The translations under genes and the position numbers were made by a program. A DNA stretch of 64,000 nt from Spiribacter halobius. Lineage in GTDB: Bacteria > Pseudomonadota > Gammaproteobacteria > Nitrococcales > Nitrococcaceae. Location: contig NZ_CP086615.1 of assembly GCF_020883455.1 (NCBI RefSeq), positions 1,612,001 to 1,676,000 of the forward strand, written 5' to 3'. Below the pieces are notes generated by a model. The model ran no database searches and had not been told where the DNA came from. It worked only from the letters and a program-made list of their open reading frames with translations. Shown here piece by piece: positions 8,786 through 45,845 of this stretch. Each line of letters opens with the position of its first letter. Position 1 is the stretch's first letter.

Positions 8786-9703
8786 ATGAAACTCGCCTGG
8801 CTGGAGGATTTCCTCGCACTCCTCGACTGCGGCACCTTCTCCGCGGCGGCGCAGCGCCGCAACGTCACGCAGCCGGCATTCTCGCGCCGCATCCGCATGC
8901 TCGAGGACTGGCTCGGCGTGGCGCTCGTGGACCGCAGTGCCCACCGCTTCACGCCCACCGCCACCGCCCGGCGCTTCGAGCGAGAGATGCGCACGCTGGT
9001 GGGCCGCACCCACGAGCTGCGTACCCGAATGCGCGCCGATACTCTCGACGAGCGCCGGCTGACGGTGACCACCCCGCACACGCTGATGGTGACGCACCTG
9101 CCAGTGTGGCTGCATCGGTTCCAGGGCTGGCAGCCGGAGACCGCCTTCCTGGTGCGCACGGGCAACTCGGAGGAGTGTGTGCGCCAGCTCGAGCGCGGCG
9201 ATGCCGATCTGATGATCGGCTATGAGGCCGAGTCGGTGGCGGCGGTCAGCGAGGGCGCCATGGCGACGCTCGAGCGCGCCCCCTTGTCGGTGGAGTATCT
9301 GCTGCCGGTGGTGGCGCAGGGGGAGGGGAGCGCCGCCATCGGTGCCGACCGCATGCCGCTGCTCGCCTATCCCGCCGAGAGCTTCCTCGGGCGGGTCGTG
9401 CGCCGGCACTGCCTGCCGGCCCTGACGGGGCAGCTGGAGCCGGAGATCGTCTGCGAGTCGGCGTTCGCCGCGGGGCTCAAGGCGATGTGCCTTGCCGGCC
9501 TCGGGGTGGCCTGGCTGCCAAGCTCGCTGGTGGCCCAGGAGCTGGCCCGCGGGGCGCTCGACTCGCTCGCGCCCCGGCTGCCGGCGCCGGCCCTGGAGGT
9601 GAGCGCGCTGCGGCTGCCCGAGCACGTCAACCCGGCGCTGCCGGAGCTCTGGCGGCGGCTCGCACGCAGGCACGGTAACCCACCACCCGGCCAGCCCGGA
9701 TAG
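8786..9703 (+). CDS. LysR-family transcriptional regulator
   Basis: A 305-residue regulator. The N-terminal winged helix-turn-helix is WLEDFLALLDCGTFSAAAQ followed by NVTQPAFSRRIRMLEDWLGV; the remaining two thirds form the effector-binding domain. It is transcribed away from the PLP-lyase gene with a 172-base shared region, the classical LysR layout, so it probably controls the lyase and perhaps the transporter downstream. ATG 8786 has GGAG eight bases ahead. Its last codons and TAG stop lie inside the left arm of a 21-bp inverted repeat (9692-9793). Confidence 0.9.
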   Translation: MKLAWLEDFLALLDCGTFSAAAQRRNVTQPAFSRRIRMLEDWLGVALVDRSAHRFTPTATARRFEREMRTLVGRTHELRTRMRADTLDERRLTVTTPHTLMVTHLPVWLHRFQGWQPETAFLVRTGNSEECVRQLERGDADLMIGYEAESVAAVSEGAMATLERAPLSVEYLLPVVAQGEGSAAIGADRMPLLAYPAESFLGRVVRRHCLPALTGQLEPEIVCESAFAAGLKAMCLAGLGVAWLPSSLVAQELARGALDSLAPRLPAPALEVSALRLPEHVNPALPELWRRLARRHGNPPPGQPG

Positions 9704-9793
9704 CTCACCGATTCGCAAAGCGAACGCGTGGAGATGCCGGCCCGCCCGCCAGATACTTGCTCGCAACCGCGGATCGGTGAGCTATCCGGGCTG
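9692..9793. repeat. Palindromic repeat copy C (short version)
   Basis: Arms of 21 bases at 9692-9712 and 9773-9793 are perfect inverted repeats, with core GGATAGCTCACCGAT against ATCGGTGAGCTATCC. The interior is about 60 bases and keeps fragments seen in the longer copies at 24228 and 45664 (CGTGGAGATG, CGCCCGCCAGAT, GCTCGCAACC). The arm differs from the 24-kb copy at TAGCTC versus TATCTC, and the opposite arm has changed to keep pairing. The rest of 9704-9989, up to the binding-protein gene, shows only that gene's leader. Confidence 0.8.
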
Positions 9794-9989
9794 GCGCGCA
9801 TCCGGGGTCCGCTGCCGGTAGCGTCCCCCGCCCGATGCCGTTTCTTTATCGCCCCTCCAGAACTCGGCATTGGCAGTGCCCGGGGCGGGTACTAGCCTGC
9901 TAGAGAGGGTCCGCGATCGGCGGTGTCCGGGGGAACGGCCGGGCCGCCGCGAGCGAACCCGCATCACCCAAGACGGAGGGTTGGCAGAA

Positions 9990-14342: not shown

Positions 14343-14344
14343 GT

Positions 14345-14610
14345 ACTAATCGTTTCGGAAGTGTTGTCAGGTCTCAGCGGGCCTGTGCGCCGCGGCGGCA
14401 AGGCGCGAGCCGCGCAGTGTAGCCGGGCTACATAAGCGGCGAGCAACGCAGTCCGCCGCGGCGCACAGCCTCGCCCTGCGGGAGCCCCGGAGCGGGCCGG
14501 CGTCGGCGTTGCGCTCGCTTGACGTGGAATCACCACGCCGGCGCTCCCGTGCCTTGCCGCCGGCCCGCTCCGGGGCTCTGAGACCTGACAATACTTCCGA
14601 AACGATTAGT
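14345..14610. repeat. Composite palindromic element E: 33-bp outer arms enclosing two long hairpins
   Basis: Outer arms 14345-14377 and 14578-14610 pair over 33 positions with one G-T (start ACTAATCGTTTCGGAAG). Inside, hairpin 1 pairs TGTGCGCCGCGGCGG (14384-14398) with 14453-14467, 15 bp perfect, and has an inner TGTAGCC/GGCTACA hairpin. Hairpin 2 pairs 14482-14501 with 14559-14578, 20 bp perfect, beginning GAGCCCCGGAGCGGG. Both hairpins hold the internal-loop pair CAAGGCRCGRG and CGAGC(GC)AACGC, hairpin 2 in the opposite orientation. This fills the gap between the PLP gene and the LysE gene (14343-14698); it is too long and symmetric to be only a terminator. Confidence 0.85.
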
Positions 14611-14698
14611 AAGCGCCGGCCAGCGCCGTCGGGCCTCCGCAAGCCCCCGGCACTCCGGTATCATCGGACGACGGCGTGGGATGCGTTGAGGGCGCGCG

Positions 14699-24219: not shown

Positions 24220-24227
24220 CCACGTTT

Positions 24228-24407
24228 AGCCCGGATATCTCACCGATTCCCGGCTGCGGGCGCGGATCTGGCGGGCAGTCCGGCGTTGCGCTCGGTCCGG
24301 GTGCTCGACGTACTGTCGAGTACGCCTGCGCGCCCGGACTCTCCCGCGCCTTGTCCTGCCCGCCATCTCCACGCCCTCGCTTCGCGAATCGGTGAGATAT
24401 CCGGGCT
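24228..24407. repeat. Palindromic repeat copy A (full length, minus orientation)
   Basis: Arms 24228-24248 and 24387-24407 are perfect 21-base inverted repeats (core CCGGATATCTCACCGATT). Inside, GGCGGGCAG (24270-24278) pairs with 24356-24364, GTCCGGG with CCCGGAC, and CTCGAC with GTCGAG, so the whole 180 bases form one long interrupted hairpin. The internal loops on the minus strand read CAAGGCGCGGGAG and CGAGCGCAACGCC. It is nearly the reverse complement of copy B at 45664. A short open frame inside is judged spurious. Confidence 0.85.
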
Positions 24408-24426
24408 AGTCACCACGTCTTCCCCG

Positions 24427-31328: not shown

Positions 31329-31398
31329 CCCGGCAAGGGAGTATCTACGGCTATGGGAGCGGCACTCCCGCCGCGAATTCCCAGGATCATACCTGGCG

Positions 31399-31448
31399 CG
31401 CATATCTCACCGATCCACGCCCGCAGCCGTGAATCGATGAGATATGCG
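31399..31448. repeat. Palindromic repeat copy D (minimal version)
   Basis: Arms CGCATATCTCACCGAT (31399-31414) and ATCGATGAGATATGCG (31433-31448) pair at 15 of 16 positions. The 18-base interior (CCACGCCCGCAGCCGTGA) equals the right-hand interior of copies A and B, so this is an internal deletion form. It sits about 70 bases downstream of the IS110 transposase stop. The outer arm differs from the other copies, with a matching change on the other side. Confidence 0.7.
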
Positions 31449-31475
31449 GGGTAGGGCGGCGGCGTTCGGGGCTTG

Positions 31476-43443: not shown

Positions 43444-45615
43444 ATGACCGAGCGAGTTGAGGCAGGCGGGCTTCAGGTGGCGAAGCCGCTGCATGATCTG
43501 ATCGAGCAGGCGCTGCCGGGAACGGGGGTCGATGCCGGCACGTTCTGGTCCGGGCTGGCGAGCATCGTCAGGGACCTCGGCCCCCGCAATCGGGAGCTCC
43601 TCGCCATTCGCGACGAGCTCCAGGCGCGCATCGATCAGTGGCACCGGGACAATCCCGGCCGCCACCACGACCCCTCCTACCGCAGCTTCCTCGAGGAGAT
43701 CGGCTATCTGCGCCCCGAGGGCGAGGATTTCCAGGTCAGCACCCGCAACGTGGACCCCGAAATCGCGGATATCGGCGGGCCGCAGCTGGTGGTGCCGGTG
43801 AACAACGCGCGCTACGCACTGAATGCGGCCAACGCCCGCTGGGGCAGCCTCTACGATGCCCTCTACGGCACCGACGTCATCCCGGAGACGGGCGGCGCCG
43901 AGAAGGGCGCGAGCTTCAACCCGGTGCGCGCGCAGAAGGTGGTCGCCTGGGCGGCGGACTTCCTGGACCGCAGCTTCCCGCTCACTGGCGGCAGCCACGC
44001 CGACGCCACCGCCTACAGCATCGCCGCCGAGGGTGCCCGGGGCACGCTGCGGGTTGCGCTGGCCAACGGTCAGACCGTCGGCCTGCAGGACCCGACCCAG
44101 CTCGTCGGCTACCAGGGCGGCGAGACGCCTACCGCGGTGCTGCTGCGTCGACACGGGCTGCATGCGGAGATCCAGATCGATTCCGGGCACCCCATCGGTC
44201 GGGAGCATGCGGCGGGCGTCAAGGACGTGCTGCTGGAGTCCGCTGTCACCGCGATCCAGGACTGCGAGGATTCCGTCGCCGCGGTTGACGGCGAGGACAA
44301 GGCGCTCGTCTACGGCAACTGGCTCGGCCTGATGAAGGGGGATCTCAGCGAGACCTTCGAGAAGGGCGGCCAGCAGGTCACCCGCCGGCTCAACGCCGAC
44401 CGCCAGTACACCACACCCGAGGGTGGCCAGCTGACGCTGCCCGGCCGCAGCCTGATGCTGATCCGCAACGTCGGCCACCTGATGACCACGCCGGCGGTGC
44501 TGGATGCGGACGGCAACGAGATCCCCGAGGGCATGCTGGATGCCCTGTGTACCGCGCTCATTGCGATGCACGACCTCAAGGGCAATGGCTCGGTGAGCAA
44601 CAGTCGCAGCGGCAGCGTGTACATCGTGAAGCCCAAGATGCACGGGCCGGACGAGGTCGCTTTCACCGTGCAGCTGTTCGAGCGCGTCGAGGACATCCTC
44701 GGCCTCGAGCGCAACACCCTCAAGGTGGGGGTCATGGACGAGGAGCGGCGCACCACGCTCAACCTCAAGGCCTGCATCCGCGAGGCGCGCGAGCGCCTCA
44801 TCTTCATCAACACCGGCTTCCTGGATCGCACCGGCGACGAGATCCACACCAGCATGGAAGCCGGGCCGATGATCCGGAAGGGTGAGATGAAGCAGTCCCG
44901 CTGGCTGAATGCCTACGAGGACTGGAACGTGGACATCGGCCTCGAGTGCGGGCTGCGCGGGCATGCCCAGATCGGCAAGGGCATGTGGGCCATGCCGGAC
45001 CGCATGGCGGATATGCTCGAGGCGAAGATCGGCCATCCCAAGGCCGGTGCCAACTGTGCCTGGGTGCCTTCGCCCACCGCGGCCACCCTGCATGCCATCC
45101 ATTACCATCAGGTGGACGTCAAGGCGCGCCAGCAGGAGCTCGGCGGGCAGCGCCGCGCCAGCCTGGAGGACCTGCTGGCCGTGCCGGTGGCCGAGGATCC
45201 GGGCTGGTCGGCCGAGGAGATCCGCCAGGAGCTGGAGAACAACTGCCAGGGCATCCTCGGCTACGTGGTGCGCTGGATCGATCACGGCGTCGGCTGCTCC
45301 AAGGTGCCGGACATCAACGACGTCGGCCTGATGGAGGACCGGGCGACGCTGCGCATCTCGAGCCAGCACATCGCCAACTGGCTGCATCACGGCATCGTCG
45401 GCGAGGATCAGGTGATGGACGCCCTGAAGCGCATGGCCGAGGTGGTGGACCGCCAGAACGCCGGGGATCCGGCCTACCGCCCCATGGCCCCGTCCTTCGA
45501 TGGCGTCGCCTTCCAGGCCGCCTGTGACCTGGTCTTCAAGGGCCGTGAGCAGCCCAGCGGCTACACCGAGCCGGTGCTGCACGCACGGCGGCTGGAGCTT
45601 AAGGCGAAGGGCTGA
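43444..45615 (+). CDS. glcB: Malate synthase G
   Basis: A 723-residue enzyme of exact GlcB length. Recognisable segments are [79 protein letters not shown] and [18 protein letters not shown]. It condenses glyoxylate with acetyl-CoA to malate, so together with the beta-oxidation genes it supports growth on fatty acids or C2 units. It is transcribed away from the MotY-like gene; repeat copy B begins 49 bases after its stop. Confidence 0.94.
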
Positions 45616-45663
45616 GCAGAGTGCGGAGCGGGGCTGTGGCAAACGGCCCCGCCCGCGTTCCCG

Positions 45664-45843
45664 AGCCCGCCTATCTCGCCGGTTCGCGAAGCGAGGGCGT
45701 GGAGATGGCGGGCAGGACAAGGCGCGGGAGAGTCCGGGCGCGCAGGCGTACTCGACAGTACGTCGAGCACCCGGGCCGAGCGCAACGCCGGCCTGCCCGC
45801 CAGATCCGCGCCCGCAGCCGTGAATCGGTGAGATAGGCGGGCT
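45664..45843. repeat. Palindromic repeat copy B (full length, plus orientation)
   Basis: Arms 45664-45684 and 45823-45843 pair throughout if two G-T pairs are allowed (core CCCGCCTATCTC against GAGATAGGCGGG). Inner stems are GGCGGGCAG (45707-45715)/CTGCCCGCC (45793-45801), GTCCGGG/CCCGGGC with one G-T, and CTCGAC/GTCGAG. Internal loops read CAAGGCGCGGGAG (45718-45730) and CGAGCGCAACGCC (45777-45789). It lies between the convergent glcB and coxF-like stops. Confidence 0.85.
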
Positions 45844-45845
45844 AG

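Follow-up and report, generated by a model that had tools for sequence, protein, structure and literature searches.

Introduction

MITEs derived from insertion sequences with TA or CTAG (YTAR) targets have terminal inverted repeats, no coding capacity, and TA or CTAG ends. Folded single-stranded DNA (ssDNA) is recognized in a strand-specific manner at the ends of IS200/IS605 elements and at integron attC sites. According to the accessible part of PMC3733652, REP dimers have been found inside longer palindromes, and TIR/TIRYT elements and the "double inverted repeats" of P. putida and P. fluorescens combine terminal repeats with stem-loops and reach hundreds of copies in Pseudomonas. Several multi-copy intergenic families of P. 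fluorescens (e.g., R178 and R200) have inverted repeats and are called MITE-like in the accessible part of PMC2718517.

Here, we describe palindromic elements from a 64,000-nt stretch of the Spiribacter halobius genome (NZ_CP086615.1, assembly GCF_020883455.1, positions 1,612,001-1,676,000, forward strand; hereafter, the window; the contig is labeled G000:C1 below). The initial annotation had reported four hairpins with two conserved loop sequences and freely changing stems, and had read them as a product of selection on a folded single strand. MITE-like mobile palindromes are of a known kind; those described here have, in addition, a widely distributed core of which one strand is selected to fold.

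Results

Elements in the window and in the S. halobius genome

All four hairpins reported initially were present (Table 1), and the element at 14345 indeed consists of two opposite hairpins within an outer stem, whose length is 34 nt and not the 33 bp first given. A covariance model, R1, built from 40 hairpins of which none came from the S. halobius genome, recovered the window hairpins with E-values down to 3.8e-22. The hairpins at 24270 and 45707 scored 23.0 and 21.7 bits (E = 3.8e-5 and 1.1e-4), and two extra matches, at 45099 (plus strand, E = 7.8e-4) and 21122 (plus strand, E = 0.0054), may be due to chance. When folded as ssDNA, the hairpins at 14384-14467, 14482-14578, 24270-24364, and 45707-45801 had z-scores of -5.0, -7.4, -4.2, and -3.3, with 0, 0, 0, and 2 per 200 shuffles, respectively, folding as well; the z-score of the entire 14345 element was -16.9. 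The stems had been described as unrelated in sequence and always perfectly paired. They do covary (see below), but the 24270 and 45707 hairpins are copies of one family, and G.U pairs, G.A pairs, and a few mismatches are present.

Table 1. Coordinates of elements and their parts in the window
Feature	Position	Strand	Remarks
Two-hairpin composite, family II	14344-14611		6 copies in the genome
Left terminal inverted repeat, 34 nt	14344-14377	+	Pairs with 14578-14611; paired changes among the 6 copies
Hairpin A	14379-14472	+	CAAGGC at 14399-14404, AACGC at 14445-14449; R1 73.5 bits, E = 3.8e-22
Mini-hairpin CCC-TGC-GGG between hairpins A and B	14474-14482
Hairpin B, orientation opposite to A	14484-14576	-	CAAGGC..AACGC on the minus strand; R1 32.0 bits, E = 3.5e-8
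Right terminal inverted repeat	14578-14611	+
Family I element, 183 bp, CTAG-type ends, one hairpin	24227-24409	-	R1 match 24261-24373
Family I element, one hairpin	45662-45845	+	R1 match 45698-45810
Palindrome related to family I (its arms), without box hairpin	9691-9794
Short palindrome, 62 bp, family I arms only	31393-31454

Throughout, family I denotes the 183-bp element and family II the composite. The strict loop pattern had 38 matches in the S. halobius genome (reversed-pattern control, 0), 37 of which belonged to family I and one of which (L017) was unrelated. The 14-nt family I arm was found at 152 + 178 places with up to 2 mismatches, the arms of full copies being counted in (reversed control, 13 + 18), and the 58 loci fetched showed that arms also occur in short palindromes, half units, and nested longer forms. 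Composites were located inside longer family I copies at L040 (313-513), L102 (848-1047), and L103 (849-1047), with start offsets of 104-106. Another composite, with a different terminal repeat, was found at G000:C1:3054130 (L319), where R1 scored one hairpin and the palindrome was recognized by eye. Among 19 relatives searched, family I was represented by one copy, in G004, and matches in G005 and G015 were unlike it.

Covariation and the invariant core

The 40 hairpins underlying R1 (set A1) came from a scan of GTDB genomes for the exact loops (39) and from a scan of viral contigs (1); they are non-redundant, of one length, and gapless. The GTDB scan used both loop sequences only, with stems left free. 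Since exact boxes were demanded, box conservation in A1 and the G.A pairs inside CGAG/CGAG hold by construction. The B hairpins of composites, which were not selected by the pattern, provided a free test of the loops. R1 scores of pattern loci also depend partly on the boxes, and the probable chance loci L139 and L166 pass as well.

Stem pairing in A1 covaried strongly, above both shuffled and slid controls. Paired cells amounted to 77.6% (shuffled, 55.6%), both sides had changed in 331 cells (shuffled, 133 ± 9), the covariation score was 0.526 (shuffled, 0.169; slid partners, 0.117-0.193), further pair types numbered 106 (shuffled, 89), and double changes were present at all 20 stem-1 pairs. 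The weak one of the five measures was the number of pairs with any double change, i.e., 30 versus 27.9, which was matched by 32 of 500 shuffles. A clear stem 1 was formed by 84 of the 108 distinct pattern hairpins with enough flank; the remaining 24 were weak, some resembling chance matches in genes.

A fixed core of CGAG/CGAG plus GCG/CGC was dropped because hairpins B show both to be replaceable. These hairpins mostly retain CAAGGC and AACGC, and at adjoining positions they carry other paired sequence (GCGGGAT/ATCCCGC, GCAGGCC/GGCCTGC) or tandem G.A pairs. What remains invariant is an internal loop in which CAAGGC lies opposite AACGCNG; the helix above this loop is either Watson-Crick or tandem G.A. 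Of the conserved loops proposed initially, CAAGGC and AACGCNG are constant, but GCGCGAG/CGAGC can be exchanged for other paired sequence. A second set, A2, comprised 150 of 157 R1 matches (56 after removal of redundancy), and the exact core CAAGGC..AACGCNG occurred in 129 of the 150. Of the 56 hairpins, 33 had G.A and 19 Watson-Crick at helix-2 pair 6, and 34 and 15, respectively, at pair 7; both positions were free in the search. Columns 36/57 were G.A in 33 of the 40 A1 hairpins. At helix-2 pairs 3 and 4 the exact boxes themselves impose G.A; among the 14 hairpins without exact boxes, these pairs were G.A in 6 and 1, respectively. One G.U pair was commonly kept (21 of 40 hairpins).

Within family I, for which 38 gapless copies from the S. 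halobius genome were used and a relative's copy (L033) was left out, variability of unpaired (0.038) and paired (0.043) columns was equal, which counts against a fixed-loop picture in this recent family. Double changes occurred in 58 cells versus 16 when shuffled (maximum of 300 shuffles, 26).

A single strand under selection to fold

Where one strand forms a G.U pair, its complement has an A.C mismatch. More G.U than A.C on a strand therefore identifies it as the one selected to fold. The G.U:A.C ratio on the loop strand was 56:20 in the 84 of 108 hairpins with a clear stem, which were chosen by loop only, and 43:16 (P = 6e-4) in the 56 non-redundant hairpins. In the 38 gapless family I copies it was 101:9 by cells, 39:9 by tree groups (P = 1.5e-5), and 20:7 by classes (P = 0.019). 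Among the tree groups, the ratio was 25:3 inside and 14:6 in the outer stem, where it fell short of significance (P = 0.12). Selection on a single strand of the hairpin to fold is therefore well supported, and covariation, the kept G.A pairs, and the excess of G.U over A.C bear out the reading given initially, although the G.U excess does not separate ssDNA from RNA.

Covariation could also arise without selection on a fold, if the elements were ordinary MITEs in which template switching or hairpin repair during replication makes one arm match the other. Such arm correction readily affects long palindromes, the outer stems of family II change in pairs between copies while the interiors, compared by eye, are near-identical, and family I stems vary as much as the unpaired parts. 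However, arm correction would erase mismatches, yet the G.A pairs at helix-2 pairs 6 and 7 and at columns 36/57 were kept; it would not distinguish G.U from A.C, contrary to what was observed; and it leaves a loop that is invariant across phyla unexplained. The G.U/A.C asymmetry and the kept G.A pairs thus argue against arm correction as the sole cause, and we consider this explanation very unlikely.

Geometry of composites

Hairpins lying within 300 nt of each other were arranged tail to tail, plus then minus, in 43 of 43 close pairs from 100 loci (93 of 120 pattern loci and 7 of 20 others), with a start offset of 106 in 33; the offset of the window composite is 105. In the 27 remaining pattern loci, three of four close pairs were tail to tail. 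The exception, L146 (2879-3106; an Acidobacteria MAG), has two minus hairpins, head to tail and 53 nt apart. Because of the tail-to-tail layout, each strand of a composite has one functional hairpin beside its 5' terminal repeat.

Among 39 distinct spacers, 36 formed CCC-N3/4-GGG. The spacer loop was TTC in 15 and GAA in 7 (together, 22 of 39), followed by a scatter that included the rarer GCA/TGC and GGA/TCC. The mini-hairpin has GNA triloops on one strand and UNCG-like loops on the opposite strand.

Distribution

The exact loop pattern occurred in at least 118 stretches of GTDB genomes. The 80 matches listed by title included Pseudomonadota (several classes), Acidobacteria, Verrucomicrobia, Planctomycetes, Gemmatimonadetes, Myxococcota, Omnitrophota, Fibrobacter, and an actinomycete MAG, and many of the rare-phylum records were MAGs. 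With up to 14 candidates scored per genome, R1 was positive in 79 of 299 genomes of the phylum of S. halobius, representing 38 of 154 genera; in the phylum of genome G022, three of 96 genomes were positive, G022 included, with 26, 9, and 1 matches. The distribution is patchy, often high in copy number, and spans several phyla.

Among viral contigs, the exact pattern was found in two stretches of a single contig. This 16-kb, viral-classed contig (IMGVR_UViG_3300022695_000189; L251 and L252) carries two composites, and the frame after one of them resembles, by eye, a phage baseplate protein. In an Omnitrophota MAG (L163, 3299-3391), a hairpin lies within an open frame of 535 aa that looks by eye like a metallo-beta-lactamase fold. 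BLAST searches of the window elements against plasmids gave no match; a Pseudomonas element (L170) matched four plasmid records and no phage, and the plasmid element of L326 had no match in E. coli genomes.

Gene context and the RNA alternative

Gene strands were called by codon scores, the caller having been checked at three sites in the window. The 42 family I copies in this set, in which gapped copies were included, were placed in sense (10), antisense (13), convergent (9), divergent (9), or unclear (1) positions relative to flanking genes. Single hairpins were in sense in 12 cases versus antisense in 8 (a class could be assigned to 50 of 107 elements). A role as terminator was rejected, copies not being confined to gene 3' ends. 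In family I, the G.U:A.C ratio was 10:2 in sense copies, 18:5 in antisense copies, and 23:2 in those otherwise placed; since the excess holds in all three, read-through transcription is not its cause.

These data bear on the possibility that the hairpin acts as RNA made from its own or a neighbor's promoter, with an internal loop that binds a protein or is catalytic and with mobility being secondary. G.A pairs, a kept G.U pair, and an excess of G.U are what one typically finds in RNA, and a composite transcribed from either side would give one functional hairpin. However, there was no preference for the sense orientation, antisense copies also had the G.U excess, and the distribution was patchy and not host-conserved. 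A comparison with Rfam, as proposed in the initial annotation, gave no match above gathering threshold in the window (release 15), and in 15 carrier loci the sole matches were two tRNAs; the best weak match on the composite was AS1890, at 16.6 bits versus a threshold of 39. Moreover, a reverse transcriptase was rejected as partner since RVT_1 was present in 9 and absent in 11 of the 20 carriers tested (of 79), so that RNA copied by reverse transcriptase is not needed for presence of the element. Taken together, we find action as RNA rather unlikely.

Ends, insertion sites, and mobility

A terminal-repeat partner was identified for 110 of 150 hairpins, at best no more than 173 nt beyond the hairpin, and 40 were without one. 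Terminal repeats vary by lineage (e.g., TAGGGCCTGTTAACA, TAGGGTCTGTTGACG, CTAGTGTSGTG, and CTAGCCCGCAT), with CTAGCCCGCAT being common to S. halobius family I and a Verrucomicrobia locus (L161). The occurrence of one core within different terminal repeats suggests several mobilizing enzymes, not one. The elements have terminal inverted repeats, are short, lack a transposase gene, end in TA or CTAG, and reach many copies in single genomes. These are features of MITEs, and the contrast with MITEs drawn initially therefore fails: each element is both a MITE-like carrier and a structurally selected core.

A left-hand CTAG end was present in 29 of the 38 family I copies; since TA and CTAG are self-complementary, a target-site duplication and an element end are indistinguishable here. 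Among 42 ends of genes pointing toward a family I copy, 18 coincide with the TAG of the copy's own end (19 with a TAGCCCG). Stops at an element's TAG would fit a CTAG target in a GC-rich genome. On a Pseudomonas plasmid, a composite with drifted loops (R1, 48.5 and 27.4 bits) takes up the whole space separating two co-directional genes; on another plasmid the homologous genes have no such composite between them, and this empty site is too diverged to show a duplication. No transposition was observed. In G020 (Thiodiazotropha), contigs C6-C9, C12, C14, C20, and C26 have a terminal repeat 70-186 nt from the contig start; since eight contigs start near terminal repeats, assemblies seem to break inside the elements.

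Search for a partner enzyme

If the element were of the REP/REPIN type, it would be mobilized by a RAYT (Y1 transposase). Inverted hairpins within a palindrome do resemble REP doublets, and Y1 genes are present in the S. halobius genome and are enriched in carriers (62 of 79 versus 113 of 220 non-carriers; P = 3e-5, with kinship ignored). To the contrary, R1 had no significant match in 33 Y1/RAYT-type loci (30 of 39 in 15 carrier genomes plus three from S. halobius, with up to 1.5 kb per side and less at contig ends), the best being 13.9 bits (E = 0.077; L254). A looser pattern had given matches at Y1 loci that looked chance-like by eye, and the test was repeated with R1. In addition, 17 carriers were without Y1, including the one-contig genomes G096 and G165, and no GTAG or CGTC tag was seen by eye at a fixed place by the hairpin foot in the printed copies. 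A Y1 partner was accordingly rejected, being neither adjacent in the loci fetched nor required for presence, and RAYT mobilization, the explanation that the initial annotation had set against its own, appears quite unlikely. The S. halobius Y1 gene (G000:C1:445187-446140; L130; 318 aa) lies beside a partial duplicate of 163 aa, and around this pair are several copies of GGGGTCAAGTCTTGACATGACAGTT, a repeat different from the hairpin element. With its GGGGTCAAGTCTTGACATGACAGTT copies, the locus resembles TIRYT elements as described in the accessible part of PMC3733652.

Seven reverse transcriptase frames of 506 aa were noted in the S. halobius genome (C1 652663, 1085058, 1730617, 1732729, 2746842, 3411761, and 3273509); six are of equal score, two are ~2.1 kb apart, and by size and copy number they are group II intron-like. 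Six of these intron-like loci had no R1 match, and a family I arm was found in one. For nine hairpins a copy of the repeat lay more than 300 nt away, with ordinary genes between in the three looked at. An autonomous element between distant terminal repeats was sought and none was seen in the loci examined (in G020, ~100 of 203 repeat positions), nor was an autonomous IS with matching ends found there.

Discussion

The explanation that we favor, giving it about an even chance, is that the elements are MITE-like, mobile but non-autonomous, and that a candidate enzyme acting in trans recognizes them as a folded single strand, probably ssDNA. Terminal inverted repeats enclose one hairpin or two tail to tail, and the folded strand would most likely be ssDNA exposed during replication or excision. 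The putative enzyme would recognize this strand, probably at the internal loop CAAGGC/AACGCNG, and move the element. Since each strand of a composite has one functional hairpin by its 5' terminal repeat, either strand could be used. More tentatively, and at somewhat less than even odds, the elements may constitute a phylum-crossing selfish class that is defined by its strand-specific folded core and not by its ends, with the loop read by a putative enzyme on ssDNA (or RNA) and the core being a recognition module shared by different mobilization systems.

Should the elements move as the folded strand, they would provide a system, distinct from IS200/IS605, RAYTs, and integrons, in which strand-specific recognition can be tested, as well as a direct route to the enzyme. 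If the hairpin instead acts as RNA, it is a common structured RNA absent from catalogues. Either way, it accounts for many intergenic palindromes of sequenced genomes.

Searches of the open-licence literature by concept gave no described match to the element; searches with the loop strings listed matches that look unrelated by title, and those with the terminal-repeat strings gave none. In the accessible parts of PMC3116915 and PMC3733652, REPINs and the GTAG- and CGTC-tagged REP dimers resemble the elements in being short, extragenic, multi-copy palindromes with inverted pairs and paired stem changes. Unlike them, the elements described here have a hairpin of ~90 nt with a conserved internal loop and terminal repeats, and neither a GTAG or CGTC tag in the printed copies nor RAYT adjacency in the loci examined was found. 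The TIR/TIRYT elements and double inverted repeats reported there flank a Y1 gene or hold degenerate GTAG-1 units, and the accessible part of PMC3733652 describes no internal loop shared across phyla; nevertheless, compared by description only, some TIR/TIRYT elements or Pseudomonas double inverted repeats may be equal to ours. Families of the R178/R200 type (accessible part of PMC2718517), compared in the same way, may include Pseudomonas copies of this element.

Unlike IS-derived MITEs, whose architecture they otherwise share, the elements had no autonomous partner in the loci examined, and one core hairpin occurs in several different terminal repeats. They also differ from IS200/IS605 in that a Y1 gene was not beside the hairpin in the loci examined, and we know of no motif common to the hairpin and IS200/IS605 ends or attC sites. 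If ssDNA is indeed what is recognized, however, IS200/IS605 ends and attC sites would work alike with the hairpin described here.
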